Virus record (IMG/VR): IMGVR_UViG_3300030329_004321
Span: 648 to 28,875 of that record
Strand: one strand, 5' to 3'
DNA: 28,228 bases
From: a virus
Shown piece after piece: positions 20,444 through 26,889 of the stretch. The notes beneath the pieces were generated by a model that worked only from the letters and a program-made list of their open reading frames with translations, had not been told where the DNA came from and did no database searches. The number at the start of each line of letters is the position of its first letter. Positions within the stretch are counted from its first letter, which is position 1. The translations under genes and the position numbers were made by a program.

Positions 20444-20770
20444 ATGAAATTAACGAATAAACATAATTTACCGAGCAGTATAGTTTCTGCCATAACAAAT
20501 ATTTCCTCCAATTATTCGAGAGGCAAAGCTGATTGCTCGGTAACACAATTAATTGATAGTCCTAAAATAAAAATTTTAAGTGAAGAATATGACGACAAAT
20601 TAACGGAAGATGTAGCCGATAGAATTTGGTCGGTTTTAGGAACTTCAACACACGATTTAATTGAAAAAACAGATAACAAAGCGACTACTGAAAAAAGGTT
20701 ATACGCCGAATGCAATGGCTGGATAATATCCGGCGCGTTAGACCGAATTGTAGTCCTAGATGACAAATGA
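20444..20770 (+). CDS. PD-(D/E)XK exonuclease, N-terminal fragment (split gene, part A)
   Basis: The first 108 residues of a RecB/Cas4-like phage nuclease: opening MKLTNKHNLPSSIVSAI, a SVTQLIDSPKIKIL motif, VADRIWSVLGTSTHDLIEK with the conserved His70 and Glu74, and WIISGALDRI with the metal-binding Asp100. It stops four codons after VVLD. The next expected motif, (D/E)-X-K, is absent here but present at the start of the ORF at 21656, with a methyltransferase gene between. Part A and part B are in the same reading frame. It cannot be active alone because its catalytic Lys is on the other fragment. No ribosome site precedes the ATG, but this start fits the family. Confidence 0.8.
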   Translation: MKLTNKHNLPSSIVSAITNISSNYSRGKADCSVTQLIDSPKIKILSEEYDDKLTEDVADRIWSVLGTSTHDLIEKTDNKATTEKRLYAECNGWIISGALDRIVVLDDK

Positions 20771-21668
20771 AAATGAAGATAAAGATTTATTCGGCAACGT
20801 TATTGAAAAGAAAAAAATCTTGCGCGAAAAATTTATAGAACCCCCTTTTACAATATTAGATTCCAAACAAGGTAATTGGCAACGCCGAAAAAGAACTTGG
20901 AAAGAATTAGGTATTCAAAGTGAAATAGGACGGGAAAGCACAACAAAAGGAAATAATTCTTTTGCTTCAAAACACGGTTTAGAACATCAAGCCGAAAGTA
21001 CACAAAAGATTATGGATATAGGGACGATAAGTATTTTTGATCCGGCTCTTTGTGAAGTTTTATACACTTGGTTTTGTAAAAAAGGCGGTAAAATATTAGA
21101 TCCATTTGCTGGTGGTTCCGTAAGAGGAATAGTAGCGGAATATTTAGGTTTTAAATATACCGGTATAGATATTCGTAAAGAACAAATAGATAGTAACGTC
21201 GAACAAGGAATAGAAATATTAGAAGAAAACCAACAACCAAAATGGATTGTTGGCGACGCGAATAAAGTATTAAATTCTATTGAAGAAGAATTTGATTTTG
21301 TATTTTCTTGTCCTCCTTACGGTGATTTAGAAATTTATTCTGATTTAGAAGGAGATATTTCTAATATGGAATATCAAGATTTTTTAAAATTTTATACCGA
21401 AATTATAGATAAAAGTTGCAAGTTGTTAAAACAAAATTCTTACGCTTGTTTCGTTATAGGGGATTTTCGGGATAAAAAAGGAAACTATCGCGGGTTTGTT
21501 GCCGATACTATTAAAGCTTTTCAAAGTTGCGGAATGCCTTTTTATAACGACGCCGTTTATTTACAGCCAACTGGCTCGGCAAGTATGAGAGCTAACGGAC
21601 AAATGAGAAATCAAAAGTTAGTAAAGATTCATCAAAACATATTGGTATTTAAAAAATGCCTGAATTGA
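20760..21668 (+). CDS. DNA methyltransferase inserted inside the exonuclease gene (302 aa)
   Basis: An S-adenosylmethionine-dependent amino methyltransferase acting on adenine N6 or cytosine N4. Motif I is DPFAGGS (residues 114-120), where AdoMet binds, followed by an acidic GIDI end; motif IV is SCPPYGD (183-189), the catalytic loop. A phage-type N-terminal extension (RKRTWKELGIQ) precedes. No partner restriction enzyme is nearby, so protection or regulation is more likely than restriction-modification. The ATG lies in the last codons of nuclease part A (11-base overlap) and its stop is 13 bases inside part B. It therefore interrupts the nuclease gene without leaving spare sequence. Target sequence unknown. 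Confidence 0.85.
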   Translation: MTNENEDKDLFGNVIEKKKILREKFIEPPFTILDSKQGNWQRRKRTWKELGIQSEIGRESTTKGNNSFASKHGLEHQAESTQKIMDIGTISIFDPALCEVLYTWFCKKGGKILDPFAGGSVRGIVAEYLGFKYTGIDIRKEQIDSNVEQGIEILEENQQPKWIVGDANKVLNSIEEEFDFVFSCPPYGDLEIYSDLEGDISNMEYQDFLKFYTEIIDKSCKLLKQNSYACFVIGDFRDKKGNYRGFVADTIKAFQSCGMPFYNDAVYLQPTGSASMRANGQMRNQKLVKIHQNILVFKKCLN

Positions 21669-22288
21669 CATTAGCGGAATTAGAAAGAAGTATGAAAAAT
21701 ATAAAAATACAAGATTACAAAGTTACAAGTGTCTGGTCTGTTATTCCGACTAAAGATAATCCTAACGGTTATAAAGAAGATTGGGAATATCAATTAAATT
21801 CATACGCTTGGTTAGGTAGAAAAAATGGTTATCGCGCTAAAAAACTTCAAATTATTGCTATACTTCGTGACCATCAAAAATCAAAAGGTTTTCAATCCTA
21901 CAAAGAAAAAGGAAACTACCCTTATCTTCCAATAAAGGTAATTGATATTCCTTTATGGACGGACGAAGAACAAGATAAATATGTTTTAGATAGAGTAGAA
22001 ACTCATCAAGAAGCAGATATGCTTTTTCATACGTTAGATAGGCAAATTGATTGTACCGATAAAGAACGGTGGAAAAAACAAGATGAATACGCCGTTAAAG
22101 TACCTAATCTAAAAAAAGCAAAAAAACTATTTACCAATTTAGAAGAAGCAGAATTATTTAAAGCTACTGTTCCCAAGTCGTTCGTAGAATTTCGAAAAGG
22201 GAATAGTAATAGATGCGCACAATATTGTTCGGTGGTTAATTTTTGTAAACAAGCAAAAGGAGAAGGTTATGGAAAAAAGACAACCTGA
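21656..22288 (+). CDS. PD-(D/E)XK exonuclease, C-terminal fragment (split gene, part B)
   Basis: Begins 17-20 residues before IQDYKVTSVWSVI, where Asp20-Tyr-Lys22 is the (D/E)XK catalytic box. Then come EDWEYQLNSYAWLG with the helper Gln46, KLQIIAILRDHQKSK, a long segment with YAVKVPNLKKAKKLF, and a Cys cluster RCAQYCSVVNFCKQ (Cys187, 191, 197) like the iron-sulphur clamp at the C-terminus of Cas4/AddB nucleases. A fourth ligand might be Cys31 of part A. Residues before about 15 are probably new sequence added after the split; an in-frame ATG at 21692 is a possible alternative start. The protein likely needs part A to be active. Role: recombination exonuclease working with the SSB-like protein encoded next. 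Confidence 0.8.
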   Translation: MPELTLAELERSMKNIKIQDYKVTSVWSVIPTKDNPNGYKEDWEYQLNSYAWLGRKNGYRAKKLQIIAILRDHQKSKGFQSYKEKGNYPYLPIKVIDIPLWTDEEQDKYVLDRVETHQEADMLFHTLDRQIDCTDKERWKKQDEYAVKVPNLKKAKKLFTNLEEAELFKATVPKSFVEFRKGNSNRCAQYCSVVNFCKQAKGEGYGKKTT

Positions 22289-22778
22289 TTTTGATTTAGT
22301 CTACGAACAGCGTTTTAAAGGTAATAGTACCGATAGAAAAATAGGCGCTGGGTGGAAAAACGAAGATGGAATTTATATACAATTTGAATTTGGCGGAAGC
22401 GTTAAATTAAAAAAACGAGAAGCTAATAGCCAAAATACAACGGCTAACGGTTATCAGCAAACAAAAGAAAGATTTACCGCGTCGAACGTAGAAGTTAGCG
22501 ACGATAGAGGCGAAGGCGAAGTTGTAAGAATTAACGATTACAGCAAAGACGGTAAACCAAACTTTATGATTATTACAAAAATAGACGGCGAAGATAAAAC
22601 GTTATACGCTAACGAACCTTGCAATTTACAAGCCGGAGATCAAATAAGTTTTGTCTATAAGAAAAAGGATCAAGTAAGCGGTAAAGGAAATAAGTTTTCT
22701 AGCGTTAAATTTGTAAAACAAGTTTCCCCAGTAAATCAAGAAGTTTCAAATGAAGAAGATGCGGATATTCCTTTTTAA
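22269..22778 (+). CDS. SSB-like single-strand DNA-binding protein (169 aa)
   Basis: The final EEDADIPF is the acidic tip by which SSB proteins recruit partner enzymes. Upstream are a beta-rich segment with KIGAGWKNEDGIYIQFEFGGSVKL, an SSB-like QTKERFTASNVEVSDDRGEGEVV stretch and a second beta-rich segment. It lacks the classic Escherichia SSB layout, so it is a diverged phage form or a functional analogue. AAGGAGAAGG precedes the ATG, which overlaps nuclease part B by 20 bases. Pairing an exonuclease with a single-strand binder is typical of phage recombination modules. Confidence 0.65.
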   Translation: MEKRQPDFDLVYEQRFKGNSTDRKIGAGWKNEDGIYIQFEFGGSVKLKKREANSQNTTANGYQQTKERFTASNVEVSDDRGEGEVVRINDYSKDGKPNFMIITKIDGEDKTLYANEPCNLQAGDQISFVYKKKDQVSGKGNKFSSVKFVKQVSPVNQEVSNEEDADIPF

Positions 22779-23018: not shown

Positions 23019-23120
23019 ATGATTACGAATATTTTACTTGTACTTAATTTATTAGTTTTAATTTTTATAGCTTTTCAACTTTTTGTTATTGGCGATAAAT
23101 TATTCGGTGATAAAAAATGA
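23019..23120 (+). CDS. Single-span membrane peptide (33 aa)
   Basis: A short ORF of 33 residues: MITN, then a hydrophobic stretch of about 19 residues (ILLVLNLLVLIFIAFQLFV), then IGDKLFGDKK. A single membrane helix with a positive C-terminal tail is the clear prediction. The ATG lies one base after the previous stop, and the TGA overlaps the HNH gene's ATG (ATGA), so it fits exactly between two genes. It could be a holin-like, superinfection-exclusion or membrane-anchor peptide. Confidence 0.6.
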   Translation: MITNILLVLNLLVLIFIAFQLFVIGDKLFGDKK

Positions 23121-23401
23121 AAAATTATAAAGACGTTTTTATGAATTTTTGGAATGACAATTTAACAATAGCGCAATCTTATCAATGTTTTAATTGTTCA
23201 AGTTGGGAAGGTGTAGATATTCATCATATAAACAACAAAGGTATGGGAGGAAGCAAAAATAAATGTTTTGATTACATAGAAAATCTAACGTGTTTATGTC
23301 GCACTTGCCATATCAAAGCGCATAAAGATAAAGATTTTAATAATACAATTAGGGCGAAAACATTACATTTAATAGCGGATAGATTAGATAATGGATTATA
23401 A
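23117..23401 (+). CDS. HNH nuclease (94 aa)
   Basis: A compact HNH/zinc finger nuclease: Cys24-x2-Cys27, DIHHI with His36-His37, an N-L pair at 56-57, then Cys61-x2-Cys64-His65 and His69. The two CxxC pairs should bind zinc and the His/Asn residues form the active site. It lacks an extra DNA-binding domain, so a recombination nuclease such as the NinG type, or a small homing enzyme, are both possible. It lies within the recombination cluster, ATGA-coupled to the membrane peptide. Confidence 0.8.
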   Translation: MKNYKDVFMNFWNDNLTIAQSYQCFNCSSWEGVDIHHINNKGMGGSKNKCFDYIENLTCLCRTCHIKAHKDKDFNNTIRAKTLHLIADRLDNGL

Positions 23402-23795
23402 AGATATTAACGAAAAAAATATAGTTAGATTAGAAGGCGGTTTTTATAAATACGATCCACACTTATTGGGAAACTTATTTCAATCATTACATTTAAACAA
23501 AGAAATAGCGCGTAATAAAATAAAGAATTTAGAACAAGAACTAAAAGATTTATTAGACGTAAAATTTTTAGAATATAAATATCCGGTAGGAACAAACGAA
23601 AAAATATCGGACAAGGTAGCGGAAGCGAAAGCTAATACCGACGAAAGCGTTAAGGTAAAGAAAAAAGAAATAGTAACGGCAAAAGATGAATTAGCTACAC
23701 ATTCTAGTGCTTACGTTGGAAAAGAAAAGAAACTAGACAGTATGGTTGAACAAAATAGTAATTCTAGGGCAGAAATAAAAATGGGTGGAATTTGA
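23391..23795 (+). CDS. Hypothetical coiled-coil protein (134 aa)
   Basis: No family recognised. Residues about 35-60 and 65-125 are charged helices rich in Lys and Glu (IKNLEQELKDLLDVKFLEYKYP, DKVAEAKANTDESVKVKKKEI). It starts 11 bases inside the HNH gene and ends in MGGI just before the next gene's TTG start. Its place between two nucleases suggests an accessory to recombination or repair, but nothing direct supports this. Confidence 0.55.
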   Translation: MDYKDINEKNIVRLEGGFYKYDPHLLGNLFQSLHLNKEIARNKIKNLEQELKDLLDVKFLEYKYPVGTNEKISDKVAEAKANTDESVKVKKKEIVTAKDELATHSSAYVGKEKKLDSMVEQNSNSRAEIKMGGI

Positions 23796-24792: not shown

Positions 24793-25016
24793 TGGCTGTA
24801 CTTTATAATAAAAAAGACTTATGTAAATTTTTAGGAATTTCGACAAGAACTGGCTATTCTTTTCTTTCTAACCTTCAGGCGCAATATCCGAAGGAAAAAT
24901 GCTTTCAATTATACGTTAATAAAAGGCAACGGTTTACCGAAGCCGATAAGGAGAGGATTTTACAATTATGCTACACTACAAAAGACGCGAAAGAGCAAAG
25001 AACAGGTACTGGTTAG
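24792..25016 (+). CDS. Putative excisionase / HTH DNA-binding protein (74 aa)
   Basis: A short winged-helix-type protein: YNKKDLCKFLGISTRTGYSFLSNL followed by RFTEADKERILQLC. The arrangement, a helix-turn-helix near the N-terminus with a short tail, is common in phage excisionases and is found immediately before integrase genes. It overlaps the integrase start by 49 bases, which couples excisionase and integrase synthesis. It could also be a regulator only. Confidence 0.6.
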   Translation: MAVLYNKKDLCKFLGISTRTGYSFLSNLQAQYPKEKCFQLYVNKRQRFTEADKERILQLCYTTKDAKEQRTGTG

Positions 25017-26272
25017 TTCGAGGAATCCATAGGTTTACTTGGCATAACAAAACGTACAAATACGTTATAGAAAATTATTTAAGTACCAAACATCTTATTA
25101 AAGAAGATGCTGAAATATGGGTTAAAAATAATTTAACCGATCCTTTTGAAGCCAAAGTAAAAGCGGGAATACAAGAAGTTAAAAAGGTTTTAACCGTCAA
25201 AGAAATGTACGAATATAAACAAAGTACCGATAAACCTTTTACTTCTAAATATTGCTTATTATTAGATAGAATTATGGATTTAAAAGTCCAAGAAGGAATC
25301 AGCGCGGGGGAATTTCCAATTACAAAAGTTACAAACGAATTTATAAAAAATATTGCTGATAAAATTTACCCTAAAGAAAAATATAAAGTTTGGATTAAAG
25401 AAAAGAAAGAATTAGTACAAAAACCTTTAGAATTAATTGGGTATAGGGAATTAAATCAAGTTTTAATACACCCTAATGATTATACCGGAAATTATTATTA
25501 TGGGAAAAGTCAAACGTGGAAAAGAAATTTTTTAAAAGCGTTGCAAAAAAAATCTGATAATATGAAGTTTGCTTCGCTAAACGAAACTTTTAATTTACGA
25601 AAGTTTAGATCCTCAAAATTAAATTCAAAGAATCAAGTTGTATCTGTATTGGCGTCTTTAGTTCATTTAGCGCACTATAAAGATAATATAGCGTGGGTTA
25701 GAATATCTAAATATTCTTTGTTTGATTCCCCGCCTATAACTTTTAGCGAAGAAGAATGCCAACGGTTTATAGACAACGCGACGTTAGTTGATACTAAACG
25801 TTTATTTATATTTTGTTTATATACGGGGGCAAGATTAAACGAAGCTTTAAAACAAAGATGGGATATGATTGATTTAGAAAATAATTCTATTTCTATATTT
25901 GAAGAAAAAGATTTAGATTATAGGGTTATAACAATACACCCAATATTAAAACAAATGTTAGAAGAAATAAATAATAAAGAAGGTAGATTATTTATTTGGG
26001 AAACAGAAGATACGTTTAAGAATACCCATCAAGGTTTATATAATAATTGGCATTGGACGTTAAGCAAAGCCGGTATAACCCACGATAAAACGTGCCATCA
26101 ATGTCGAGCAACGTTTATTACTTGGAATAGAAAATATAATAACTTTGATAAGATAGGTTTGAAAAGATTATCGGGACATAAAAGCGACGCTTCAATAGAC
26201 CATTACGCTAATGTTTTACCGGAAGAAATAACAAGCGCTATTAATAATCTTCCTAGTTTATCTATTAATTAA
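24968..26272 (+). CDS. int: Tyrosine integrase (434 aa)
   Basis: Site-specific recombinase. The catalytic residues are Arg289 (TGARLNE), a Lys probably near 314, His377 and Arg380 (CHQCR), His404 (LSGHKS) and the nucleophile Tyr413 (DHYANV). The N-terminal 60 residues (RERAKNRYWLVRGIHRFTWHNKTYKYV) look like the arm-binding fold and residues about 75-250 the core-binding domain. The Leu-rich C-terminus after Tyr413 is short. This gene makes the phage temperate. The attachment site was not found; there is no gap on its 3' side, where the second methyltransferase starts after two bases. Confidence 0.9.
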   Translation: MLHYKRRERAKNRYWLVRGIHRFTWHNKTYKYVIENYLSTKHLIKEDAEIWVKNNLTDPFEAKVKAGIQEVKKVLTVKEMYEYKQSTDKPFTSKYCLLLDRIMDLKVQEGISAGEFPITKVTNEFIKNIADKIYPKEKYKVWIKEKKELVQKPLELIGYRELNQVLIHPNDYTGNYYYGKSQTWKRNFLKALQKKSDNMKFASLNETFNLRKFRSSKLNSKNQVVSVLASLVHLAHYKDNIAWVRISKYSLFDSPPITFSEEECQRFIDNATLVDTKRLFIFCLYTGARLNEALKQRWDMIDLENNSISIFEEKDLDYRVITIHPILKQMLEEINNKEGRLFIWETEDTFKNTHQGLYNNWHWTLSKAGITHDKTCHQCRATFITWNRKYNNFDKIGLKRLSGHKSDASIDHYANVLPEEITSAINNLPSLSIN

Positions 26273-26274
26273 AT

Positions 26275-26889
26275 ATGATTTATAATGAAGATTGCAGAGA
26301 AACCTTTAAGAAAATTAGTTACGATTATGTTTTTACTTCCCCTCCGGATTTTGAAGAAATAAAACTAAATCCCAAAGAAAATAATTATAAAGATTTTCTT
26401 GATAGTTGGACACCGTTATTAAAGCCAACTAACAATTTAGTAACGATTTGCATAACGGATAGAAAAGTAAACGGCGGTATAAACACGAAGCATATAGATG
26501 TTATCGCTTCAATGAAAGAAAACGGCTGGTATTTAAAGGAAAATAAAATCTGGGTTAAGTCTTTAAAGATTAATTTATTTAGGTTGAACTTTATGAATAT
26601 ATTAACTTTTGCAAAAAAACCTTTTAAACTAATTGATAATAAAAATATTCCAGACGTTTTGTTTGATGATAAACCGTATAGATATAAAGACTATAACGAT
26701 ACTATGTCGTTGGAAGTTTGTAAGCAAATTATAAATAAGTATACCAACAAAGATAATATTGTTTACGATTGTTTCTTTGGAGCTGGTACTACCGGTTTAG
26801 CTTGTAAGGAATTAGGGATAGATTTTTTAGGTAGTGAAATAGATAAAAATATACTAAACTACTATTATGAACGTTTAAAACAAAAATAA
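26275..26889 (+). CDS. Small DNA methyltransferase with atypical SPPD motif (204 aa)
   Basis: Beta-class order: the catalytic motif comes first (TSPPDF, residues 21-26), the AdoMet-binding motif I last (DCFFGAGTT, 165-173, followed by FLGSEID). The usual fourth residue of the catalytic motif is aromatic (S/D/N-P-P-Y/F/W), here Asp25 followed by Phe26. A family of marine phage methylases with ITDRKVNG and KIWVKSLKINLFRLNFMNIL segments seems to share this form, from memory. The protein is short, with a small target-recognition region. It could be catalytically changed or inactive. It starts two bases after integrase. Confidence 0.75.
   Translation: MIYNEDCRETFKKISYDYVFTSPPDFEEIKLNPKENNYKDFLDSWTPLLKPTNNLVTICITDRKVNGGINTKHIDVIASMKENGWYLKENKIWVKSLKINLFRLNFMNILTFAKKPFKLIDNKNIPDVLFDDKPYRYKDYNDTMSLEVCKQIINKYTNKDNIVYDCFFGAGTTGLACKELGIDFLGSEIDKNILNYYYERLKQK

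Follow-up and report, generated by a model that had tools for sequence, protein, structure and literature searches.

In a 28,228-nt stretch of viral DNA (the window; positions 648-28875 of a 28,875-nt virus record), a gene predicted to encode a complete DNA methyltransferase (MTase) lies between two open reading frames, A and B, which sequence comparison identifies as the two complementary parts of a single phage Cas4/EXO5-like PD-(D/E)XK exonuclease (PHROG 2139). We consider it likely that the exonuclease gene underwent fission at the tip of a beta-hairpin, that the MTase gene sits in the break and that A and B act jointly as a two-chain enzyme. The locus contains the following features:

20444..20770, + strand: ExoA (A), 108 aa, putative N-terminal part of a PHROG-2139 / N4 gp42-like PD-(D/E)XK exonuclease
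20760..21668, + strand: MTase, 302 aa, predicted complete stand-alone DNA methyltransferase, between A and B
21656..22288, + strand: ExoB (B), 210 aa, putative C-terminal part of the same exonuclease as A
20760..20770, + strand: junction 1, stop of A overlapping the MTase start (ATGACAAATGA), in identical register in the related contig L108 (ATGATAAGTGA)
21656..21668, + strand: junction 2, stop of MTase overlapping the B start; homologous B start in L108
21656..21697, + strand: N-terminal extension of B, ~14 residues (MPELTLAELERSMK), not in intact relatives; L108 counterpart (VSELTMEAFERDLK) partly conserved
22269..22778, + strand: SSB-like gene downstream of B, 20-nt overlap with B, acidic DIPF tail

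Layout of the locus and assignment of its genes

The three open reading frames were located at the coordinates given in a preliminary description of this DNA, with one frame (position mod 3 = 2) for A and B and another (0) for MTase, and the 11-nt (A/MTase) and 13-nt (MTase/B) overlaps reported there were borne out. The C-terminus of A reads ...LDRIVVLDDK* and thus lies six codons past GALDRI, not four as had been stated. B had been described as resuming with the (D/E)XK motif; the motif (IQDYK) is indeed present in B, but 17 residues precede it, about 14 of which form the extension. B and its SSB-like neighbor, a label based on inspection of a sequence for which Pfam and PHROG searches returned no family match, belong to one recombination/replication operon. 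The terminase of the window is 49% identical to pelagiphage terminases, such as those of Greip EXVC021P and HTVC024P. Further downstream (24968-26889), 2 nt separate a tyrosine integrase gene from the gene that follows it, which encodes another DNA methyltransferase (204 aa), unrelated to MTase; the phage carries two methyltransferases and is probably temperate.

A matched the PHROG 2139 profile ('exonuclease') at positions 2-82 of 330 (E 1.2e-13) and B at positions 143-320 (E 6e-26), so that together they cover the profile N- then C-terminally, in order. Because chance cannot yield complementary, collinear matches, we assign both to one exonuclease family, in line with the preliminary description of an exonuclease gene divided by an MTase gene between its metal-site motifs. 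A contains the conserved residues His70 and Glu74 and the metal-binding motif G97-A-L-D100, while B carries D20-Y-K22, Q46 (QxxxY) and cysteines 133, 187, 191 and 197; the metal-site motifs GxxD (A) and DxK and QxxxY (B) are near-invariant among relatives and present in the window. The alignment to the phage exonuclease family proposed in the preliminary description supported the assignment: A keeps the residues invariant in 61 intact relatives, and A+B is collinear with, and carries the invariant residues of, the intact proteins of Pelagibacter phage Baldr, Leptospira phage LE3, archaeal virus vir555 and Planktothrix phage Pag-Yong1. A match to PDDEXK_1 (PF12705) was found in 46 of 62 alignment members; members of PHROG 2139 and PDDEXK_1 are single polypeptides, and the enzyme is encoded by two ORFs in the window and in L108. 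When viral contigs were scanned with B or MTase as single proteins, almost nothing was found, and alignment queries were needed to recover relatives. Twenty of the 62 intact exonucleases also matched DUF2188 (a K/A-rich motif) in their C-terminal half, which suggests an inserted subdomain there.

The MTase matched Pfam N6_N4_Mtase (E 5e-14) and contains the motifs DPFAGGS and SCPPY, which are conserved in its relatives. Its residues 9-299 align with positions 18-301 of 316 of PHROG 12517 (E 3e-89), a near full-length match that agrees with the earlier description of a complete 302-residue protein; we therefore predict a complete enzyme of the N6_N4 type, belonging to a family of stand-alone phage methyltransferases. 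Pfam and PHROG searches revealed no nuclease domain in the insert, and hence nothing that would class it as a homing endonuclease. Relatives of the MTase at 60-65% identity are common in marine phages, many unsplit contexts contain relatives at 58-65%, and exonuclease halves were found beside the gene at none of 79 other MTase loci. In L331 (2480-3418), a relative of the MTase gene is itself divided between two ORFs of 705 and 231 nt. An HNH gene of the window (23117-23401) was considered as homing agent and rejected, given that it also occurs in L190, which has an intact exonuclease, and in genomes in which no exonuclease was detected, so that no link between the two emerged.

Intact relatives, a second split genome and selection on the halves

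Both halves were present in a single ORF in 178 cases (136 distinct proteins) across all fetched loci. In the first set, comprising phage records, IMG/VR and GTDB genomes, 101 of 101 had both halves in one open frame, and in 270 phage records every match was contiguous, among the matches listed; overall, the exonuclease occupied one open frame in all but a few sampled relatives. GxxD and DxK, placed within about 15 residues of each other by the preliminary description, are separated by ~8-21 residues in the intact relatives, and their continuity in these homologs leaves the claim of a divided gene standing. L190/L185 encodes one intact 305-aa exonuclease in a record whose TerL is 83% identical to that of the window. 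In a tree of the family, the window and L108 group together, with L185, L198 and L199 as neighbors. The ancestral state is a single-chain exonuclease, and the sister lineage L190/L185 is uninterrupted.

The search for the same split in related genomes, suggested with the first description, was successful. L108, a 34,972-nt contig found via a terminase search (TerL 90% identical to that of the window), has the same order A-MTase-B, with protein identities of 67% (A), 86% (MTase) and 65% (B). Its A likewise ends in ...LDDK with an 11-nt overlap with MTase, and its B begins at the homologous position with the codon GTG and a 4-nt overlap. A third contig, L189, belongs to a different dataset; it spans A and the first portion of MTase, with a sequence identical to that of L108.

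Among four-fold sites with conserved amino acids, 23 of 74 differed between the window and L108 in MTase and 38 of 69 in A+B, and nucleotide identity rises at both MTase borders. The MTase alone may have been exchanged later. Nearby genes are even more similar than MTase (the HNH gene and the following gene, 23391-23795, share 93-94% DNA identity with L108, compared with 64-80% for their neighbors), indicating that the region is mosaic in general; the segment 23117-23795 marks a mosaic border inside the early region.

dN/dS between the window and L108 was 0.16 for A, 0.17 for MTase and 0.30 for B, values that derive from two distinct split sequences with high synonymous divergence (dS 0.85-1.36). 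Fifty-eight alignment columns are at least 90% conserved in 130 intact proteins, which retain a median of 100% of them; the window keeps 57 and L108 all 58, the lone departure being His73 in B of the window, where almost all relatives have Trp. Both halves have been under purifying selection since the split. Given that D100 of A and D20/K22 of B are needed for one metal site and that both are retained, the data point to joint function.

The cysteines are distributed differently from what had been proposed. C133, C187, C191 and C197 of B are invariant in 62 of 62 intact proteins, whereas Cys31 of A, which had been suggested to share a cluster with the B cysteines, is Cys in only 3 of 62 and Ile in L108. 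A cluster common to both pieces via Cys31 is ruled out by this non-conservation; since all four invariant cysteines lie in B, a possible Fe-S cluster would not be shared between the pieces. The four residues could hold an iron-sulfur cluster of the Cas4/EXO5/AddB type.

In a structure model of the intact L190 protein (pLDDT 95), the strands carrying GxxD (residues 96-111) and DxK (117-129) form a hairpin, and the break maps to residues 112-118, the tip of the beta-hairpin joining the catalytic strands. The PDB fold matches of this model were Cas4 SSO0001 (4ic1, E 7.5e-8), human EXO5, RecE, type I-C Cas4 and MGME1, the nearest entries of these nucleases being 4ic1, 7lwa, 3h4r and 8xa9; a PDB sequence search with the family profile gave no real match, so that only the fold search succeeded. 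Rows from phage records were left out of the structure-model alignments. When B is modeled alone (pLDDT 95), the extension is predicted to form a short helix at residues 6-12, ahead of the DYK strand. The preliminary description would have been contradicted by a model in which B forms a complete nuclease without A; no such fold was seen, and a PDB search with the B-alone model had no match at E<0.1. Taken together, the models assign the enzyme to the Cas4/EXO5 group and speak against B being a complete nuclease.

Proposed working and origin of the split

In our proposed mechanism, the ancestor would have been a single-chain Cas4/EXO5-like exonuclease (PHROG 2139, N4 gp42 family) encoded beside an SSB-like gene. 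In this scheme, the gene was divided at the tip of the beta-hairpin between the catalytic strands, and the break is now filled by a stand-alone DNA methyltransferase gene that is itself complete. A, MTase and B are probably translated in succession by termination-reinitiation: no Shine-Dalgarno-like sequence was seen upstream of MTase or B, and with overlapping stop and start codons and no obvious ribosome-binding site at MTase/B, coupled reinitiation is the natural reading. A frameshift or readthrough joining A, MTase and B was rejected, as a TAA lies just before the B start in the frame of B and the overlaps contain no slippery heptamer. After synthesis, A (GxxD strand) and B (DxK strand, QxxxY and cysteine cluster) would associate and re-pair the hairpin strands, which would rebuild one metal site across two chains. 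A+B is thus probably a two-subunit enzyme with its metal-site residues on separate chains, and it is from the sequences and models that we infer two-subunit activity, physical association, nuclease activity and translational coupling.

The finding of the same split in a diverged contig shows that the split in the window is not an assembly error. Although the window is itself a metagenomic contig, a chimera or sequencing artefact has a negligible probability in view of the shared structure at 65-86% protein identity in L108 and of the A/MTase junction in L189 from another dataset. It is also improbable that A and B are decaying remnants of a nuclease inactivated by the insertion, with MTase alone functional. 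The replacement of a near-invariant Trp by His73 in B of the window and a dN/dS of B somewhat above that of MTase would fit such decay, but in two genomes whose halves are 65-67% identical both reading frames are open and subject to purifying selection, the 57 and 58 conserved columns kept include metal-site residues on both chains, and the junctions are conserved between the window and L108. A single-chain nuclease could still be made if MTase lay inside a self-splicing intron or between split-intein halves, arrangements that are common among interrupted phage genes (PMC3653736). This is very unlikely here. A search against Rfam introns gave no match at E up to 1. The gap is taken up by MTase coding sequence, which is in a frame other than that of A and B and extends into both of them, so that ~42 nt are left. 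Furthermore, the last residues of A are exonuclease residues, and the 14-aa extension of B is too short for an intein part. The earlier statement that no leftover intron-like sequence is present is therefore correct, the insert being all MTase coding sequence.

We further infer that it was the entry of MTase that split the gene, and not an earlier break. A possible, if less probable, order of events is that a loop change and a frameshift first produced two overlapping ORFs at the hairpin tip with two-chain function, and that MTase entered the junction later. A contig with such a break is L199 (1-922), ~93% identical to the intact L196/L198, in which the exonuclease ORF is interrupted at exactly the hairpin tip affected in the window although no gene is inserted there; compared with L196/L198, the sequence of the tip has been replaced. 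Its A ends in GAIDRIIIEEE*, TTG can serve as the start codon of its B, giving a 14-nt overlap, and 54 of the 58 conserved columns are kept. A prior break would also fit the lower four-fold divergence of MTase compared with the flanking halves, and the same order has been raised for gene 43 of Aeromonas phage 25 (PMC2988022). However, L199 groups in the tree with the intact L185/L198, apart from the MTase-split pair, so that its break looks separate, and as a single contig it could reflect a one-base error or a fresh pseudogene. L199 may accordingly represent an independent break, such an error, or a stage of the break-first route. The two orders lead to the same final mechanism.

Splits at a second site of the exonuclease were found in three further contigs:

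L229 2965-4080, L231 2965-4080 and L213 2989-4382: exonuclease split in the loop between the RDW helix and the YP motif

L229 and L231, which come from two datasets, are identical in sequence and contain one inserted small ORF, whereas L213 contains two different small ORFs; none of these inserts had a PHROG match. The splits likewise show stop/start overlaps, the first parts of the exonucleases have a dN/dS of 0.047, and L229 keeps 58 of 58 conserved columns. Since these three form their own clade among the intact genes in the tree, exonuclease fission by non-endonuclease cargo has occurred at least twice when the MTase split is included. We put forward tentatively, with slightly less than even confidence, that ordinary cargo genes have repeatedly landed in the exonuclease gene of marine phages, with independent lineages split by unrelated non-endonuclease genes at two surface loops (MTase at the catalytic hairpin, small ORFs before the YP motif), always with stop/start overlaps and preserved halves, and that fission by cargo is a general route to multi-subunit phage enzymes without a homing endonuclease; the MTase may move as a cassette.

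Significance and comparison with known systems

To our knowledge, where a free-standing gene is known to have split a phage gene, the intruder is a homing endonuclease, and the damage is accounted for by its selfish mobility. The splitting gene here is a methyltransferase and, in another clade, the inserts are small ORFs without an assigned family. Moreover, an enzyme is not easily divided between two strands that hold one metal site. Should the halves assemble, they would constitute a natural split nuclease, the reconstitution of which is testable with three small genes and with the intact sister as control. Annotation would label A and B as two unrelated hypothetical proteins.

By sequence, A+B belongs over its full length to the N4 gp42-like exonucleases (PHROG 2139), with all metal-site and cysteine positions; the members in phage records (Baldr, LE3, Pag-Yong1) are encoded by one contiguous ORF, in contrast to the two genes plus MTase found here. 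Cas4, EXO5, MGME1 and RecE, the nearest solved folds of the intact homolog, are single chains, unlike A + B. In Cas4 and EXO5 one cluster cysteine lies N-terminal of the nuclease core, whereas all four invariant cysteines of the present family lie in the C-terminal half.

Among phages, insertions of mobE and mobA have split nrdA in Aeh1 and gene 60 in T4, respectively, and seg43 accompanies the divided gene 43 of Aeromonas phage 25, for which a prior split of the gene was left open; activity has been reported for the pieces of nrdA (Aeh1) and of gene 43 (gp43A/B, phage 25) (PMC2988022). The mobE/nrdA arrangement had been named as an analog in the preliminary description, and the comparison is apt in that a foreign gene divides a core phage enzyme and neither an intron nor an intein is involved. 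As in all three systems, the foreign gene divides the core enzyme gene near a functionally critical region, the pieces would be expected to assemble, and the overlapping stop and start codons suggest translational coupling. Unlike these systems, in which the insert is a homing endonuclease that explains its own mobility, the insert here is an MTase without known homing activity, and the split gene encodes a putative Cas4/EXO5-like exonuclease with the break between its catalytic strands. Outside phages, the mitochondrial cox2 gene of Campsomeris has undergone insertional fission (PMC5374615), where, similarly, an insertion with its own ORFs led to two complementary coding units; that case concerns an animal mitochondrion, and a nuclease ORF in the insert was proposed as the agent. 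A search of the open-access literature found no phage gene split by an MTase. With uninterrupted relatives, no splicing element and purifying selection on the pieces, the locus shows these features of phage "genes in pieces", with a methyltransferase in place of the homing endonuclease, and it is this part that is new.
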